Assembly: GCF_017921895.1 (NCBI RefSeq)
Contig: NZ_JAFIDN010000003.1
Location: forward strand, 372,001-436,000
Direction of reading: 5' to 3'
Length of the DNA: 64,000 nt
Source: Natronogracilivirga saccharolytica
Lineage (GTDB): Bacteria; Bacteroidota; Rhodothermia; Balneolales; Natronogracilivirgulaceae
Made by a program: the position numbers and the translations under genes. Under the pieces are notes generated by a model, which did no database searches, was not told the DNA's origin, and saw nothing but the letters and a program-made list of their open reading frames with translations. Shown here piece by piece: positions 55,454 to 61,672 of this stretch (positions are counted from its first letter, which is position 1; each line of letters begins with the position of its first letter).

Positions 55454-55516
55454 CTCAGTGCCGGAAAGCGTGAATCGGGGATGATTACAGGTGCAATCGG
55501 ATTAAACCGGCAGGGC

Positions 55517-55551
55517 ACTCTTTTACTCTTGTTTTTTATCCGTTAAAAGAG
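55517..55551 (+). terminator. Inverted repeat after mscS, possible terminator
   Basis: CTCTTTTA (55517-55524) and TAAAAGAG (55544-55551) are complementary, with a T-rich loop. No T run follows the stem, so it may not terminate. Confidence 0.3.
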
Positions 55552-55576
55552 GGTGCAAGTTTTTACATGCAACAAT

Positions 55577-55600
55577 CTTGCATTTGTGTCCAAATGCAAG
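55577..55600. promoter_or_regulatory. 24-bp perfect inverted repeat, probable operator of the receptor operon
   Basis: CTTGCATTTG (55577-55586) and CAAATGCAAG (55591-55600) are perfect inverse complements with TGTC between. Six TGCAA/TTGCA half sites occur between 55492 and 55609. The repeat covers the -35 and the spacer of the predicted promoter, the usual place for a repressor, for instance of the Fur/Zur type. Confidence 0.6.
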
Positions 55601-55606
55601 TAAATT
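55578..55606 (+). promoter_or_regulatory. Predicted promoter of the lipoprotein-receptor operon
   Basis: TTGCAT (55578-55583) is followed after exactly 17 bases by TAAATT (55601-55606). It coincides with the inverted repeat and lies about 70 bases before the first ATG. Confidence 0.5.
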
Positions 55607-55675
55607 GCATTTATTCGTTGTTCCGGGCCAGCTGGGCCTGCGAAAAAGTAAAAAAAAAACTTAATTAAAGGCACT

Positions 55676-55735
55676 ATGACTTTTTTCAAAACTTCCCGAT
55701 TGTTTATGACTTTTTTCAAAACTTCCCGATTGTTT
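55676..55735 (+). repeat. Perfect 30-bp tandem duplication at a gene start
   Basis: Bases 55676-55705 and 55706-55735 are identical. Each copy encodes MTFFKTSRLF and begins with ATG, and a third ATG follows at 55736. The gene thus has three in-frame starts. Confidence 0.95.
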
Positions 55736-56437
55736 ATGTTCCTGTTCGGCATTGCTTTTATAGTTTCGTCCTGCGATGACAACGATAATGATGATCCGAT
55801 GTATCCGGAACCGGCAGGGTTTTCTATACAGATTGACGGTGTCGATTTTGTGATTTATGAAGATGGCAGTTATACATACAATCCTGAGGGTGTAACCCCT
55901 GAGTATGAGTACAATAACAGGGTCATGCTCAGTATGGTACATGAGGGCGGTAATCTGGTGGACACCAGGGAAACCCGTCCGGACAGCCCCCGGTACTACT
56001 CACCAGTGGTGCAAATACGGTTTCATGATGCCCAGGGTAATCATATTCCCTATCCGGAAGAACGGGACAGCGAAGGCGAGATAAATCCGGACGGTCAATA
56101 TCGGCTTGAATACGATTGGGTTGACCCGGTAGAGGACCGTAAAGCCAATATCGAGCAGCATGGTGGTGACGGCTCGTGGGGATTTCACATCCGGGCAGAT
56201 CAGCCGGGTGAAACCGGCATCGTCTTCAGCGTTTACCGGTGTGAAGATGTTGCTGATATCGTAAGTTTGGGATTTTCCGATGATCCCAACGACCCGCAAC
56301 GCACAGAACGTGAATGCAATGTTGCCGAAGAGCAGGTCTTTGAAGCCAGTGCCCCGCTCATGATTTATGTCGATGATGAGTATGAAGGCATTGAGGAAGG
56401 CCGTTATCCGCATGAACGCCATTTTCGTATCCGCTAA
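55676..56437 (+). CDS. Lipoprotein of unknown function, first of a pair
   Basis: This 253-residue protein has a signal peptide and lipobox IVSSC at about residue 33. The mature part contains FSIQIDGVDFVIYEDGSYTYNPEGV, PVVQIRFHDAQGNHIPYPEE and GEINPDGQYRLEYDWVDP. It shares with the next gene the pattern DG.....Y....PDG, a beta-rich core and GEINPDG/GERNPDGEW. A later stretch SWGFHIRADQPGETGIVFSVY resembles the second protein's TWVFKMEARHHGRADMRINLF. It is probably an outer-membrane-linked partner of the receptor two genes on. The 30-bp duplication leaves ATG at 55676 or 55706 as the start; I give the longer. Confidence 0.6.
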   Translation: MTFFKTSRLFMTFFKTSRLFMFLFGIAFIVSSCDDNDNDDPMYPEPAGFSIQIDGVDFVIYEDGSYTYNPEGVTPEYEYNNRVMLSMVHEGGNLVDTRETRPDSPRYYSPVVQIRFHDAQGNHIPYPEERDSEGEINPDGQYRLEYDWVDPVEDRKANIEQHGGDGSWGFHIRADQPGETGIVFSVYRCEDVADIVSLGFSDDPNDPQRTERECNVAEEQVFEASAPLMIYVDDEYEGIEEGRYPHERHFRIR

Positions 56438-56496
56438 ATCAGAACCCGCAAAAACAACCTCAAAATAAAAGCAGTTCTGAATAGTTTTCTGTTAAT

Positions 56497-57108
56497 ATGA
56501 GTAAACTGAAATCACTTATAATCATTACCTTCTCAGCCTTGCTGGTGACATTGTCATTGCAGGGCTGTGAGGACAATCCTGTGGACTCTGAAGGCGGAGA
56601 CCATGCGCCGGCAGTTGGTTTTGAATTGGAAATGGACGGCGATGTGCTGGTATCCTATTTCCTTCGTCAGTATGAATTCGATCCGGATGGTGTATTCGAA
56701 GATAATATCGTCCTTGATGAAGAAATAGCTGTTGGCGGCAAAGTTGTATTCCGCGAAGCAGATCTTGACCCTGAAACAGGTCATACGCCACAGATGAAAG
56801 TGCATTATCTGGATGAGAACCGGGATCGGATTTCTCTGCCGGAGTATTATGCTGACGGTGAAAGAAATCCCGACGGTGAATGGTATCTTGAATTTGAATA
56901 TTTTGAGGCCGGCAGCCGTAACACACGCCTCTCTCCGGAAGACCGCCCTTTCCAGGCCGTTTATGACAAGACGGACGGACAAACCTGGGTATTCAAAATG
57001 GAAGCCAGGCATCACGGACGGGCCGATATGCGAATCAATCTGTTTCACCTTGATCATACCGACATGACCCCGATACCGCTTCCTGTTTATTTTGATCTGG
57101 AGTCATAG
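56497..57108 (+). CDS. Lipoprotein of unknown function, second of a pair
   Basis: This 203-residue protein has lipobox LSLQGC with Cys at about 24. Its core VGFELEMDGDVLVSYFLRQYEFDPDGV is the counterpart of the first protein's, followed by PQMKVHYLDENRDRISLPEYYADGERNPDGEWYLEFEYFE. The end has HHGRADMRINLFHLDHTDM with several histidines that could bind metal. It is about 50 residues shorter than the first. It overlaps none of its neighbours, lies 59 bases after the first and just before the receptor gene, and is probably co-transcribed. The function may be capture of the receptor's ligand on the surface or in the periplasm, but this is inference. Confidence 0.6.
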   Translation: MSKLKSLIIITFSALLVTLSLQGCEDNPVDSEGGDHAPAVGFELEMDGDVLVSYFLRQYEFDPDGVFEDNIVLDEEIAVGGKVVFREADLDPETGHTPQMKVHYLDENRDRISLPEYYADGERNPDGEWYLEFEYFEAGSRNTRLSPEDRPFQAVYDKTDGQTWVFKMEARHHGRADMRINLFHLDHTDMTPIPLPVYFDLES

Positions 57109-57124
57109 TGGATTTTCCTTCCCG

Positions 57125-59509
57125 ATGCCAACCATGAGTACTGCTGTTTTTTCCCGCACGCTGATTACCTCCGCATTTTTTCTGTTTATTGCAGTTCATG
57201 CCGGGTTTGCTTCCGGTATGACAGAGGACCATTCTGCAGGTAGTGCCGGTTCGGCAGTGTCTGACGCGGGAATCCTGAAAGGATATGTCCATGACAGCGA
57301 AACCGGGGACCCCGTCGTGCTTGCCTCCGTCTATATTCCCGATCTCGACCGGGGAAGCGTCAGCCATGATGAGGGAGATTTCATCATCCGGAATATTCCC
57401 GAAGGTGAGTACAGAATCCGGTTTCAGCACGTTGGATACGAGTCCACATCCAAAAATGTAACGATCACAAGGGATGATACCACCCGGGTTTCGGTTTCAA
57501 TGCGCCCGTCTGTTTTTCGGTCGTCGGAAGTGGAAATTGTGGCCAGGCATGCTGCAGAGGAGGATGATATCACCACATATGTCGAACGAACCGTCACCGG
57601 CCGCCATCTGCGTCAGCAGCTGGGCCGTACACTTGCAGAGACACTTGAAGATGAACCCGGCATGGCGCAGCGGTCAATGGGACCTGCACCTGCCAGACCC
57701 GTGTTGCGTGGCCTTGGTGGTGACCGCCTTTTAATACTTGAGGATGGCGGCAGGACCGGAGATTTGTCCGCCACTGCATCCGACCATGCGCTTTCGATCG
57801 ACCCGATGACCGCCGAGCACATCGAACTGATTCGCGGTCCGTCTGCGATAGTTCATGGCTCCAATACCATGGGCGGCGTCATCAATGTGCGTAGAGGTCA
57901 GATTCCGTTTGATCATCCCGATCATATCCACTGGAGCGGTAGTCTGCAGGGAGAATCCGTCAACAGGGGAATGTCAGGCGGCTTTCGGGCTTTTGGACCG
58001 GTAGACACCAGCCTGCCGTTTTCCGGCCGGAGCTTGTCTTTCACCGACCGTATGGCATTCAGGTTTGATTTTTCGGGGCGGCACACGTCCGATATGGATA
58101 CCCCTGCAGGTTCCCTTGTCAATACCGATATTACCACGCTCAATGCGTCGCTGGGGCTGAGCTACATCGACGACTGGGGTGTTATCGGATTTTCCGGCAA
58201 TATTCTTGATTCAAAATATGGTGTGCCCGGGGGAGAGGGAATTGCCGAAGCACATCCAAACGGAGTCGACATTGAGATGTTCCGCCGGTATCTTGACGGA
58301 AGAGCGCGGTTTAATTTTTCGGACAGCTGGGCCAGAAGACTGGATGTGAGATGGAATTACTCCTACTACTTCCACAGGGAACTTGAAAAGCCGGATGACC
58401 CGGATATTCCGCAGCCGGTTGGTGCGGAATTCGGAGTGCTGACCAATAACATCCGCATGGATCTGCACCATCGTAACATGCTGTTTTTTGAAAAAGGGTT
58501 GGTTGGAGTTTGGGCGGAACATCGTGATTACGCATCGGGGGGCATGACCTTTACTCCGGAAACCATAGAGCGTTCCGTAGCCGGATACCTGTTTCAGGAG
58601 CGGGATTTCCGGTCCTTCAACCTGCAGATTGCACTGCGGTATGACTACAGGCACTTGTCGCCTGAAGAGGCAGAATCCATCTTTCTTGACCATGACATAA
58701 CCAGCAGGGAATTTCATGGCGCATCCGGGTCTGTCATGGGCTCATGGAATATCACTTCCAACCTGAAACTGGGTTCTACGATCACCAGAACGCATCGTTC
58801 CCCTATCATTGAAGAACTCTATTCGGAAGGTCCGCATCTGGCGAATTTTTCATACGAGATCGGTAATCCTGCACTTACCAGGGAAAAAGGCTGGGGGAGT
58901 GAGGTGTTCGTGCGATGGAACAGAGAGCGGATGCGTGCCAGCATGGCAATTTACCGAAATCAGATGGACAACTACATATTTCCCCAGGACACGGGGGAAC
59001 AAAGTCCCCGACGCGATGATCTGAATGTATTTCAGTATACGGAAAACAAAGTTCTGATGACCGGGGCCGAGCTGAATTACGAGTTGCTGTTGAACCGCAG
59101 TTTAACAACCGGAGGTACGGTCAGTTATGTCAGAGGAGATTTTATTGACGATGGTGAATCGTTTCCTTTTCTGGTTACAGAAGAACGTGAAAATGCGGTG
59201 CCTCTGATGCCGCCCCTGAACAGCCGGCTGTATCTGGAATACAGCCTGGGTTCACTGAAAATCGGCGGTGCCGCAAGGCTGGCAACACGGCAATCACGGA
59301 CGGACGAATTTGAAGAGCCCACTGATGAGTATGCTGTTTTTGACTTGTATGCTCAGTACCACTTCAGCAGAGCAGGGGCATTGCATACATTTTCTTTTAC
59401 TGTGGAAAACCTGGCCAACTCAGAGTACCGAAATCACCTTTCCCGGATCAAGTCAGTCATGCCTGAGCCCGGGCGAAACGTGAAAATGCTTTACAGGGTG
59501 TATTTTTAA
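57125..59509 (+). CDS. TonB-dependent receptor, ZnuD-like
   Basis: This receptor of about 794 residues takes up a ligand through the outer membrane with energy from TonB/ExbB/ExbD. A signal peptide (to about 30) precedes a carboxypeptidase-regulatory-like domain (GILKGYVHDSETGDPVVLASVYI, about 50-125) and a plug with PVLRGLGGDRLLILEDGGRTGDLSATASDHALSIDP. That block, with EHIELIRGPSAIVHGSNTMGGVINV, resembles the ZnuD zinc receptors of Neisseria (GDMS, DHA, VD motifs). The 22-strand barrel ends in NVKMLYRVYF with a terminal Phe. The start is 57125 or 57134; an upstream ATG overlaps the lipoprotein gene. The metal is a guess. Confidence 0.8.
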   Translation: MPTMSTAVFSRTLITSAFFLFIAVHAGFASGMTEDHSAGSAGSAVSDAGILKGYVHDSETGDPVVLASVYIPDLDRGSVSHDEGDFIIRNIPEGEYRIRFQHVGYESTSKNVTITRDDTTRVSVSMRPSVFRSSEVEIVARHAAEEDDITTYVERTVTGRHLRQQLGRTLAETLEDEPGMAQRSMGPAPARPVLRGLGGDRLLILEDGGRTGDLSATASDHALSIDPMTAEHIELIRGPSAIVHGSNTMGGVINVRRGQIPFDHPDHIHWSGSLQGESVNRGMSGGFRAFGPVDTSLPFSGRSLSFTDRMAFRFDFSGRHTSDMDTPAGSLVNTDITTLNASLGLSYIDDWGVIGFSGNILDSKYGVPGGEGIAEAHPNGVDIEMFRRYLDGRARFNFSDSWARRLDVRWNYSYYFHRELEKPDDPDIPQPVGAEFGVLTNNIRMDLHHRNMLFFEKGLVGVWAEHRDYASGGMTFTPETIERSVAGYLFQERDFRSFNLQIALRYDYRHLSPEEAESIFLDHDITSREFHGASGSVMGSWNITSNLKLGSTITRTHRSPIIEELYSEGPHLANFSYEIGNPALTREKGWGSEVFVRWNRERMRASMAIYRNQMDNYIFPQDTGEQSPRRDDLNVFQYTENKVLMTGAELNYELLLNRSLTTGGTVSYVRGDFIDDGESFPFLVTEERENAVPLMPPLNSRLYLEYSLGSLKIGGAARLATRQSRTDEFEEPTDEYAVFDLYAQYHFSRAGALHTFSFTVENLANSEYRNHLSRIKSVMPEPGRNVKMLYRVYF

Positions 59510-59519
59510 ACACCATTTA

Positions 59520-60254
59520 TCAACTGCTTCCGTTTTTTTCTTCCTTGTCCTTATGCAGCATCTCATCAAGGAGGTGATTGATGCCCAGCACTTTCTCTAC
59601 ATTCAGCACAAATGCAATTCCCTTGCCGGGCTTGTCCAGTTCACCGGTTTTAACAATGGATTCCAGTACCTTGTCGGTGATTTTTTGAGGGACAAGTATC
59701 AGGACAACCTCTTTTTCAGGTTCAATATTGAAAGAGAACAACTTTCCGTGTTCATGAATGCCAGTGCCTCTGCCGGTCATGATGGTTCCGCCGGCAGCGC
59801 CGGCTTTGCGGGCTGCAGTGATGATTTCCTCGCAAAAGCCTTTGTTGACGATTGAGACTATGAGCTCGAATTGTGCAGTTTCATCCATCGATTTGAGTGG
59901 TTGATCAGTAGGTTTGTCTTTTTTCTTGTGCAAGTGAACAGCTCCGGTAAAACTGGTAATATCCAGTATAAAAGCAACGCCGTTTCCCGACTTGCCCATT
60001 TTTACACTTTTGCTGATGATGCCCAGAACCTCCTCGGCGTGTTCATCGGAAACGACAGTAAAAATCACATCTTTCTCCGGCTCCAGGGGGATGCCCCAAA
60101 AAGTTTTACACTTTTCTATTCCGGCGCCCTGGCCGTGAATGATGGTAGCCCCCTCTGCCCGTTTTCGCTTGGAGGCCTTCACCACAACCGAGGTTTTGTC
60201 ACGGTTGACTATGCTGATAATTAGCTTTTGGCAGTGCTTAAGAAGGTCAATCAT
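59520..60254 (-). CDS. Tandem PII-like signalling protein
   Basis: This 244-residue protein has two PII-like (GlnB-fold) domains in one chain, about 1-110 and 125-235. Each shows IVN...  then a Gly-rich switch: EGATIIHGQGAGIEK and GGTIMTGRGTGIHEH, followed by the family strand (EPEKDVIFTVVSDE, EPEKEVVLILVPQK). The classical T-loop tyrosine is absent. Such proteins bind nucleotides or small metabolites and gate a partner. The ATG at 60254 overlaps the stop of the DUF1538 gene by 8 bases (ATGATTGA) and is preferred to the one at 60287. Its operon with two DUF1538 genes suggests it regulates them. Confidence 0.8.
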   Translation of the reverse strand: MIDLLKHCQKLIISIVNRDKTSVVVKASKRKRAEGATIIHGQGAGIEKCKTFWGIPLEPEKDVIFTVVSDEHAEEVLGIISKSVKMGKSGNGVAFILDITSFTGAVHLHKKKDKPTDQPLKSMDETAQFELIVSIVNKGFCEEIITAARKAGAAGGTIMTGRGTGIHEHGKLFSFNIEPEKEVVLILVPQKITDKVLESIVKTGELDKPGKGIAFVLNVEKVLGINHLLDEMLHKDKEEKNGSS

Positions 60255-60975
60255 CTCTTTTTTCTTTCCATGCGTAAAGAAGCCCAAGGGTAAGAACGGA
60301 AATTATCGGCGCCAGGGCAACCAAAGCAATCATTCCGAAACTGTCCGTCATCGGGTCACGATCGGGCAGCACTTCTCCAACTCCAAGTGCTACCGCCATT
60401 ATAAACGTAACAGTCATCGGTCCTGTTGCGACACCGCCGGCATCAAATGCAACAGAAGTAAACGTAGGTGAGGTAAAGTGCATCATGGTCAGAGCTATTG
60501 CATAACCGGGCAGAATCAGCCAGATGATCGGTATGCCGATCAGCAGACGCAGCATGGCAAGTGCGATAGACAACCCTACTCCGATACATAATGTGTACAG
60601 CAAAACTTTTTTCGGGATATACCCGCCAGATACTTTATCCACCTCATGATTCAGGATCCGGATTGCCGGTTCCGCAATGGTAGCTACAAACCCCAGTAAA
60701 AAGCCTATGGGGACCAGCACCCAGCGGGCATTTTTCGAGCCCAGCACTTCACCCATCATCGTACCTGCGGGTTCAAATCCGACATGAACTCCCTGGAGAA
60801 ACAGTGTCAGGCCGATAAAAGCCAGTACGATTCCTTTGATAATATCGGTAACCTTTTTCAGCGGCAGATGCAGAAATGTAAACTGGGCTATCAGAAAAAA
60901 TATTACAAGCGGTACAAGGGCAAAGACCACTTCTACAATAACATCCGTAAATCCGCTGAATATGGTGATATTCAT
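60247..60975 (-). CDS. DUF1538 membrane protein, second of a pair
   Basis: This 242-residue inner-membrane protein has about seven helices. The signature SVAFDAGGVATGPMTVTFIM (about 176-195) recurs in both copies of the pair, as does FLLGFVATIAEPAIRIL. Known members of DUF1538 are of unknown function; conserved Asp/Gly in a helix break suggest a transport or channel-like site. It starts 4 bases after the first copy ends and overlaps the PII-like gene. In many bacteria the family is encoded as one longer chain with two such halves, so here the halves are separate proteins. Confidence 0.8.
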   Translation of the reverse strand: MNITIFSGFTDVIVEVVFALVPLVIFFLIAQFTFLHLPLKKVTDIIKGIVLAFIGLTLFLQGVHVGFEPAGTMMGEVLGSKNARWVLVPIGFLLGFVATIAEPAIRILNHEVDKVSGGYIPKKVLLYTLCIGVGLSIALAMLRLLIGIPIIWLILPGYAIALTMMHFTSPTFTSVAFDAGGVATGPMTVTFIMAVALGVGEVLPDRDPMTDSFGMIALVALAPIISVLTLGLLYAWKEKRDD

Positions 60976-60979
60976 TTTA

Positions 60980-61672
60980 TCAGCCGTATATGATTCCGAG
61001 TATCAGCACTGCCAGTACCGGTCCGATGGATGCCAGTGCCACAAGGCCAAAACCATTGTCCGTAGTTTTTCTTCCCCCAAGCACCGCAGCCACACCAATC
61101 CCGTAGGCAAGGATAAAGGGTACCGCAAGGGGACCCGTAGTGACACCACCGGCATCAAATGAAATGGAAATAAATTGCTCAGGTACGAATATGGCCAGAA
61201 TAAAAATCAACAGATATCCCCCCATGAGCAGGTACTTTATCGGGATATCAAATATGATACGCATGATTGCAAGTCCCACAAATATCGCCAGTCCAAGGGC
61301 AACGGTGTAGATCAGCAGATGGCGGTTTACCTCACCGTCCGAAACGGTATCAACATAATTTGCAAGAACGCGTACATCAGGTTCAGCGACGGTTACCACA
61401 AATCCAAGTAAAAAACTTATCAATATGATTATCCATACCTTTCCGATCTGAGGCAGAGCGGATCCGATCATCTCCCCGATGGGAAGCAGCCCGATATGCA
61501 CCCCCAGCAGAAAGAAGATCAATCCTGCTGAAACCATCACTGCCCCAACGATGAACTGCAGAAAGTCTTCCATGGGCAGCCATATGATGGTGAACTGCAG
61601 GATAATCACAATCACCGTAACAGGTATGACTGCCTGAACGACCTCTGTTATTGTTTCACGAACATTTTGCAT
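60980..61672 (-). CDS. DUF1538 membrane protein, first of a pair
   Basis: This 230-residue membrane protein is the homologue of the next gene, with ISISFDAGGVTTGPLAVPFIL and SFLLGFVVTVAEPDVRVLANY matching position by position. It has about seven helices and no signal peptide cleavage. It is the first gene of the DUF1538-DUF1538-PII operon. The 85-base gap to recG holds no clear promoter box. Function and substrate are unknown; a sensory PII partner implies a regulated flow of a metabolite or ion. Confidence 0.8.
   Translation of the reverse strand: MQNVRETITEVVQAVIPVTVIVIILQFTIIWLPMEDFLQFIVGAVMVSAGLIFFLLGVHIGLLPIGEMIGSALPQIGKVWIIILISFLLGFVVTVAEPDVRVLANYVDTVSDGEVNRHLLIYTVALGLAIFVGLAIMRIIFDIPIKYLLMGGYLLIFILAIFVPEQFISISFDAGGVTTGPLAVPFILAYGIGVAAVLGGRKTTDNGFGLVALASIGPVLAVLILGIIYG

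Follow-up and report, generated by a model that had tools for sequence, protein, structure and literature searches.

A probable Zur-repressed zinc-uptake operon with a duplicated, putatively metal-capturing lipoprotein in the Balneolales bacterium Natronogracilivirga saccharolytica

Introduction

According to the accessible portions of a review on Zur (PMC6103462), Zur targets include the promoter of the regulator itself (autoregulation), COG0523/ZigA genes and TonB receptors, and the ZigA/COG0523 GTPase is described as a standard target in these portions and in those of a second source (PMC2770081). The same portions of the review mention no Bacteroidota regulon, and the literature that we searched yielded neither a Zur box containing TTGCAAC nor a paper on zinc in Balneolota. 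An operon of Natronogracilivirga saccharolytica, located in a 64-kb stretch of DNA that was analyzed as a whole (hereafter, the window), invites comparison with these regulons. What they have in common is a Fur-family regulator and a 7-1-7-type palindromic box, found in the promoter of that regulator as well as at COG0523/ZigA genes and TonB receptors; the core of the box, TTGCAAC-N3-GTTGCAA, is different.

The closest described receptor is ZnuD, which is likewise TonB-dependent; the receptor described here differs from it in carrying an N-terminal CarboxypepD_reg-like domain and in having two lipoprotein partners. ZrgA, described in the accessible parts of PMC9817125 as an accessory protein of zinc acquisition under Zur, offers a further parallel, but the two lipoproteins are likened to it by role only. 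Taken together, the comparisons reported below make it quite likely that the locus is a Zur-repressed zinc-uptake operon in which a metal-capture lipoprotein has been duplicated and split.

Results

Operon layout and receptor

The first-pass annotation had described two related lipoprotein genes and a receptor gene running in one direction, and this arrangement was borne out by the open reading frames, Pfam and hhalign. The genes follow one another in this order:

55676-56437, + strand: lipoprotein 1 (clade A), with the EQH and WxFH motifs kept and HxDHxD gone
56497-57108, + strand: lipoprotein 2 (clade B), with an N-terminal His and an LFHLDHTD motif kept, lacking EQH and WxFH
57134-59509, + strand: ZnuD-like TonB-dependent receptor with an N-terminal CarboxypepD_reg-like domain, from Pfam, NCBIfam and PDB matches

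A perfect in-frame 30-bp tandem duplication at 55676-55735, in which ATGACTTTTTTCAAAACTTCCCGATTGTTT occurs twice, doubles the first ten codons of lipoprotein 1. Because of this duplication, the gene may instead start at 55706 or 55736. The relative in L029 has a single copy of the 30-bp unit.

In Pfam, the receptor matched TonB_dep_Rec_b-barrel (1.4e-31), CarbopepD_reg_2 and Plug, with both the plug and the barrel domain (PF07715 and PF00593) above the cut-off. A PDB sequence search returned ZnuD as the closest solved structure (4rdr, E 2.9e-30), and ZnuD was also the top NCBIfam model (NF038289, 1.9e-50), with a score of 172.3 bits that lies far below the model's cut-off of 950. The earlier proposal of a metal-uptake unit is supported by the proximity to ZnuD and by the Zur-type boxes described below, with zinc as the putative metal. 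Tail-to-tail behind the receptor, positions 59520-61672 encode a double P-II-like protein and two DUF1538 membrane proteins; the same neighbors are found near the receptor at four other loci (L039, L040, L230 and L235).

A lipoprotein pair derived from a single partner

The two lipoproteins are homologous to each other. An HMM-HMM comparison, as suggested in the first-pass annotation, linked them in hhalign with a probability of 99.4% over 174 columns, and lipoprotein 2 used as a query retrieved lipoprotein 1 with an E value of 1.3e-9 and 30% identity. They had been called unrecognized, and indeed neither matched a Pfam or NCBIfam model at the cut-off. Searches of the PDB by sequence and by fold gave no convincing relative; in the fold searches, lipoprotein 2 gave only weak matches to beta-sandwiches, and lipoprotein 1 gave no match that could be used. 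Both structure models are strand-rich, with mean pLDDT values of 81.9 and 78.4.

Wherever the contig reaches far enough, the lipoprotein pair lies next to the receptor on its upstream side, and the idea that such lipoproteins occur mainly away from receptors is therefore contradicted by the genes examined. A class-wide search revealed a simpler arrangement as well, in which a single lipoprotein lies directly upstream of a related receptor (15/15 loci). Long and short single lipoproteins each make up one side of a well-supported branch (98/93 and 100/99, respectively), as do lipoprotein 1 and its relatives (clade A, 100/99) and lipoprotein 2 and its relatives (clade B, 100/99). The branching order of A versus B is left undecided by the tree, with a support of just 83/52.

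The distribution of conserved His/Asp motifs, which were chosen after the alignment had been seen, differs among these groups. The full set (N-terminal His, EQH, WxFH and HxDHxD) is present in all nine long single lipoproteins, and H-x-D-H-x-D is kept in 14/14 of the short ones. Within clade A, HxDHxD is found in 0/17 sequences, EQH or ENH in 16/17 and WxFH in 16/17. Clade B (n = 20) has HxDHxD in every complete sequence and the N-terminal His in 19, with EQH in 0/20 and WxFH in 5/20. As judged from the alignment, lipoprotein 1 has thus lost H-x-D-H-x-D, and lipoprotein 2 has lost EQH and usually WxFH. The homology and the clade support fit the single duplication that had been proposed for the two genes, accompanied by complementary motif loss. 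Since each lipoprotein has lost a different half of the conserved His/Asp motifs, which would bind metal, the pattern suggests that the two proteins work as a pair.

Alternatively, the lipoproteins may have diverged to independent roles through neofunctionalization, with no common site and no joint action. This explanation is quite plausible, if short of probable. It would account for an insertion with two conserved cysteines that replaces the lost H-x-D-H-x-D in lipoprotein 1, and for the operon of one relative (L181), in which the clade B gene is present and the clade A gene was not detected. Independent roles are harder to reconcile with the retention of the genes as an adjacent pair at nearly all loci and with motif losses that are complementary across 17 clade A and 20 clade B sequences.

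Other small proteins accompany related loci. At seven of them, a His/Cys protein of about 100-120 aa with a GRAPP-like end lies just upstream of the single lipoprotein; two copies of it were scanned and gave no Pfam match. Elsewhere (L152, L154 and L159-L162), a different small lipoprotein of the CFNFDSLSHND type, also with no Pfam match, stands beside another TonB receptor behind Zur-type boxes.

Two palindromic boxes over the promoter

Upstream of the genes, the first-pass annotation had reported a 24-bp inverted repeat, six TGCAA-type half sites and a promoter-like sequence, all of which are present as described:

55565-55585, strand not given: box 1, Zur-type, ACATGCAACAATCTTGCATTT, one mismatch, covering the -35-like hexamer; 20.2 bits
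55592-55612, strand not given: box 2, Zur-type, AAATGCAAGTAAATTGCATTT, a perfect 8-5-8 palindrome covering the -10-like hexamer; 20.8 bits
55577-55600, strand not given: 24-bp perfect inverted repeat, CTTGCATTTG-TGTC-CAAATGCAAG, made up of the facing halves of the two boxes
55578-55606, + strand: promoter-like TTGCAT-N17-TAAATT (hexamers at 55578-55583 and 55601-55606), a consensus match only

The six TGCAA/TTGCA half sites start at 55492, 55554, 55568, 55578, 55595 and 55605, the last ending at 55609. Four of them make up two larger palindromes that had been overlooked, namely boxes 1 and 2, which are 21-bp palindromes of the form AAATGCAA-N5-TTGCATTT placed 27 bp apart. In the output of a repeat finder, the half sites appear as direct copies of 19 nt with the same 27-bp spacing, and a whole-genome pattern search returned box 2 as the sole perfect match to AAATGCAA-N5-TTGCATTT. 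Upstream of many homologous operons, one to three palindromes occur at a spacing of about 27-32 bp.

The regulator and its box in relatives

The genome contains two Fur-family genes. The second (G000:C8:110067-110498) is followed by merC (MerC PF03203, 4.2e-20) and directly preceded by TTGCAACTGAGTTGCAC; this palindrome, at C8:110516-110536, is of the same class as those at 55565-55612. From 60 related genomes, we retrieved 30 loci with an orthologue of this Fur-family gene. TTGCAAC-N3-GTTGCA lies upstream of the orthologue in 30/30, and TGCAA-N5-TTGCA is mismatch-free in 29/30, with the box 32-80 bases before the start. Exact TTGCAACNNNGTTGCAW occurs at 47 places in the 60 genomes, compared with one for the reversed control.

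Away from the regulator, the box precedes COG0523 GTPases (L156, L158, L160-L162, L164, L166) and merC (L163, L167, L168) and is found near TonB receptors (L152, L154, L160-L162); at a few such places in the 60 relatives, the target is not evident. The COG0523 GTPase matched the ZigA model with an E value of 2.6e-166 (553 bits against a cut-off of 600). In a sample across the phylum, the box was again present at Zur-like genes (L191, L202, L207, L214), receptors (L195-L198) and merC (L193, L202, L207), together with many further places that have no evident meaning.

Sequence alone does not assign the regulator to Zur, Fur or PerR. Its best NCBIfam models, PerR (1.4e-11), Fur and Zur (1.0e-9), stayed well under their cut-offs, and the Zur family model PRK11639 scored 38.3 bits against a cut-off of 167, slightly behind the PerR model. 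Nevertheless, the product of this gene is most likely Zur, because relatives carry this box in front of ZigA-type GTPases, TonB receptors and merC.

A different signal would be involved if the boxes served a Fur-family regulator that responds to peroxide, iron or manganese, with heme, a siderophore or some other compound as the cargo of the receptor. The ranking of PerR above Zur in NCBIfam and the match of the receptor to a heme-receptor model (152.6 bits, under the cut-off) lend this explanation some weight. We nonetheless regard it as unlikely, given that ZigA-type GTPases and merC stand under the same box in relatives, that ZnuD is the best match of the receptor in both NCBIfam and the PDB, and that another Fur-family gene, a stronger one, is present in the genome. 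With Zur as the probable regulator, the earlier view of the operator can be upheld in part: it differs from the classical boxes of Fur and Zur, as had been claimed, but it does not fall outside the Zur system, as it resembles the box of the lineage's own putative Zur.

The window was scanned with a matrix derived from 29 zur promoters, all from other genomes. Box 2 ranked first and box 1 second, and the third match reached 4.8 bits; the maxima in 20 shuffles of the window were 4.1-16.5 bits, so that both boxes exceed what chance yields. Both boxes, at 20-21 bits, are weaker than the regulator's own box, at 27 bits. Among relatives, many of which are represented by incomplete metagenome genomes, a strong box lies upstream of the receptor operon in 13/20 cases in the families in which close Zur orthologues are present (f1, f4 and f5) and in 1/11 cases in family f3, in which they are mostly absent (Fisher p 0.007, indicative only, since the rows are related). 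The matrix scan found no strong box at the other 7/20 receptor operons of the Zur-bearing families, nor at the cobW-family loci of the Natronogracilivirga saccharolytica genome.

The genome contains further near-matches, which we set aside as weak or as orphans: C1:52659 lies upstream of a LacI-type gene (13.4 bits), C14:7433 lies within an open reading frame (14.3 bits), and C2:463988 and C14:37720 score 15.6 and 5.9 bits, respectively. A near-perfect Zur-type box with no evident target (G000:C17:5794-5810, 23.1 bits) lies on a contig whose genes include plasmid- or phage-like ones.

The 24-bp repeat as a product of adjacent boxes

The first-pass annotation had taken the 24-bp repeat for the operator. 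A search upstream of homologous operons gave a divided result: the repeat is missing from all other fetched receptor operons, whereas its component TGCAA-N5-TTGCA palindromes recur. Even the 83%-identical L029 operon retains the flanking boxes and has no 24-bp repeat. That the repeat is the operator of an unrelated repressor is highly improbable, despite its perfection and its position over the -35 and spacer, since it has no second copy in the genome and is fully accounted for by the right half of box 1 and the left half of box 2; it was dropped as a candidate operator.

Discussion

The proposed mechanism combines zinc-dependent repression with shared capture of the metal. When zinc is plentiful, the putative Zur would bind both 21-bp palindromes over the -35 and -10 hexamers and block transcription. 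Under zinc starvation, these sites would be freed, allowing production of the two presumed outer-membrane lipoproteins and the ZnuD-like receptor. The ancestral state may have been a single receptor-partner lipoprotein with all of the conserved His/Asp motifs, of which complementary parts were kept after a tandem duplication. The two present-day proteins would together capture zinc or a zinc complex at the cell surface and pass it to the receptor. A more specific version of this proposal, in which they are the obligatory parts of one composite zinc-capture unit at the receptor, derived from an ancestor that used two motif sets to bind zinc and was duplicated once and split, under a Zur box that we did not find in the literature searched, is offered tentatively, and we would sooner doubt it than expect it.

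The comparisons provide a usable candidate Zur box for Balneolales and, with thinner sampling, for other Bacteroidota, thereby filling a place for which the accessible portions of the Zur review (PMC6103462) give no regulon. They also define a family of receptor-partner lipoproteins that has no Pfam or NCBIfam model. The coexistence of one-protein and two-protein versions constitutes a natural experiment on the role of such partners in putative zinc uptake. One single lipoprotein (L228:5423-6283) has an extra His/Asp-rich C-terminal half, an arrangement that looks like a fusion of two domains into one chain.
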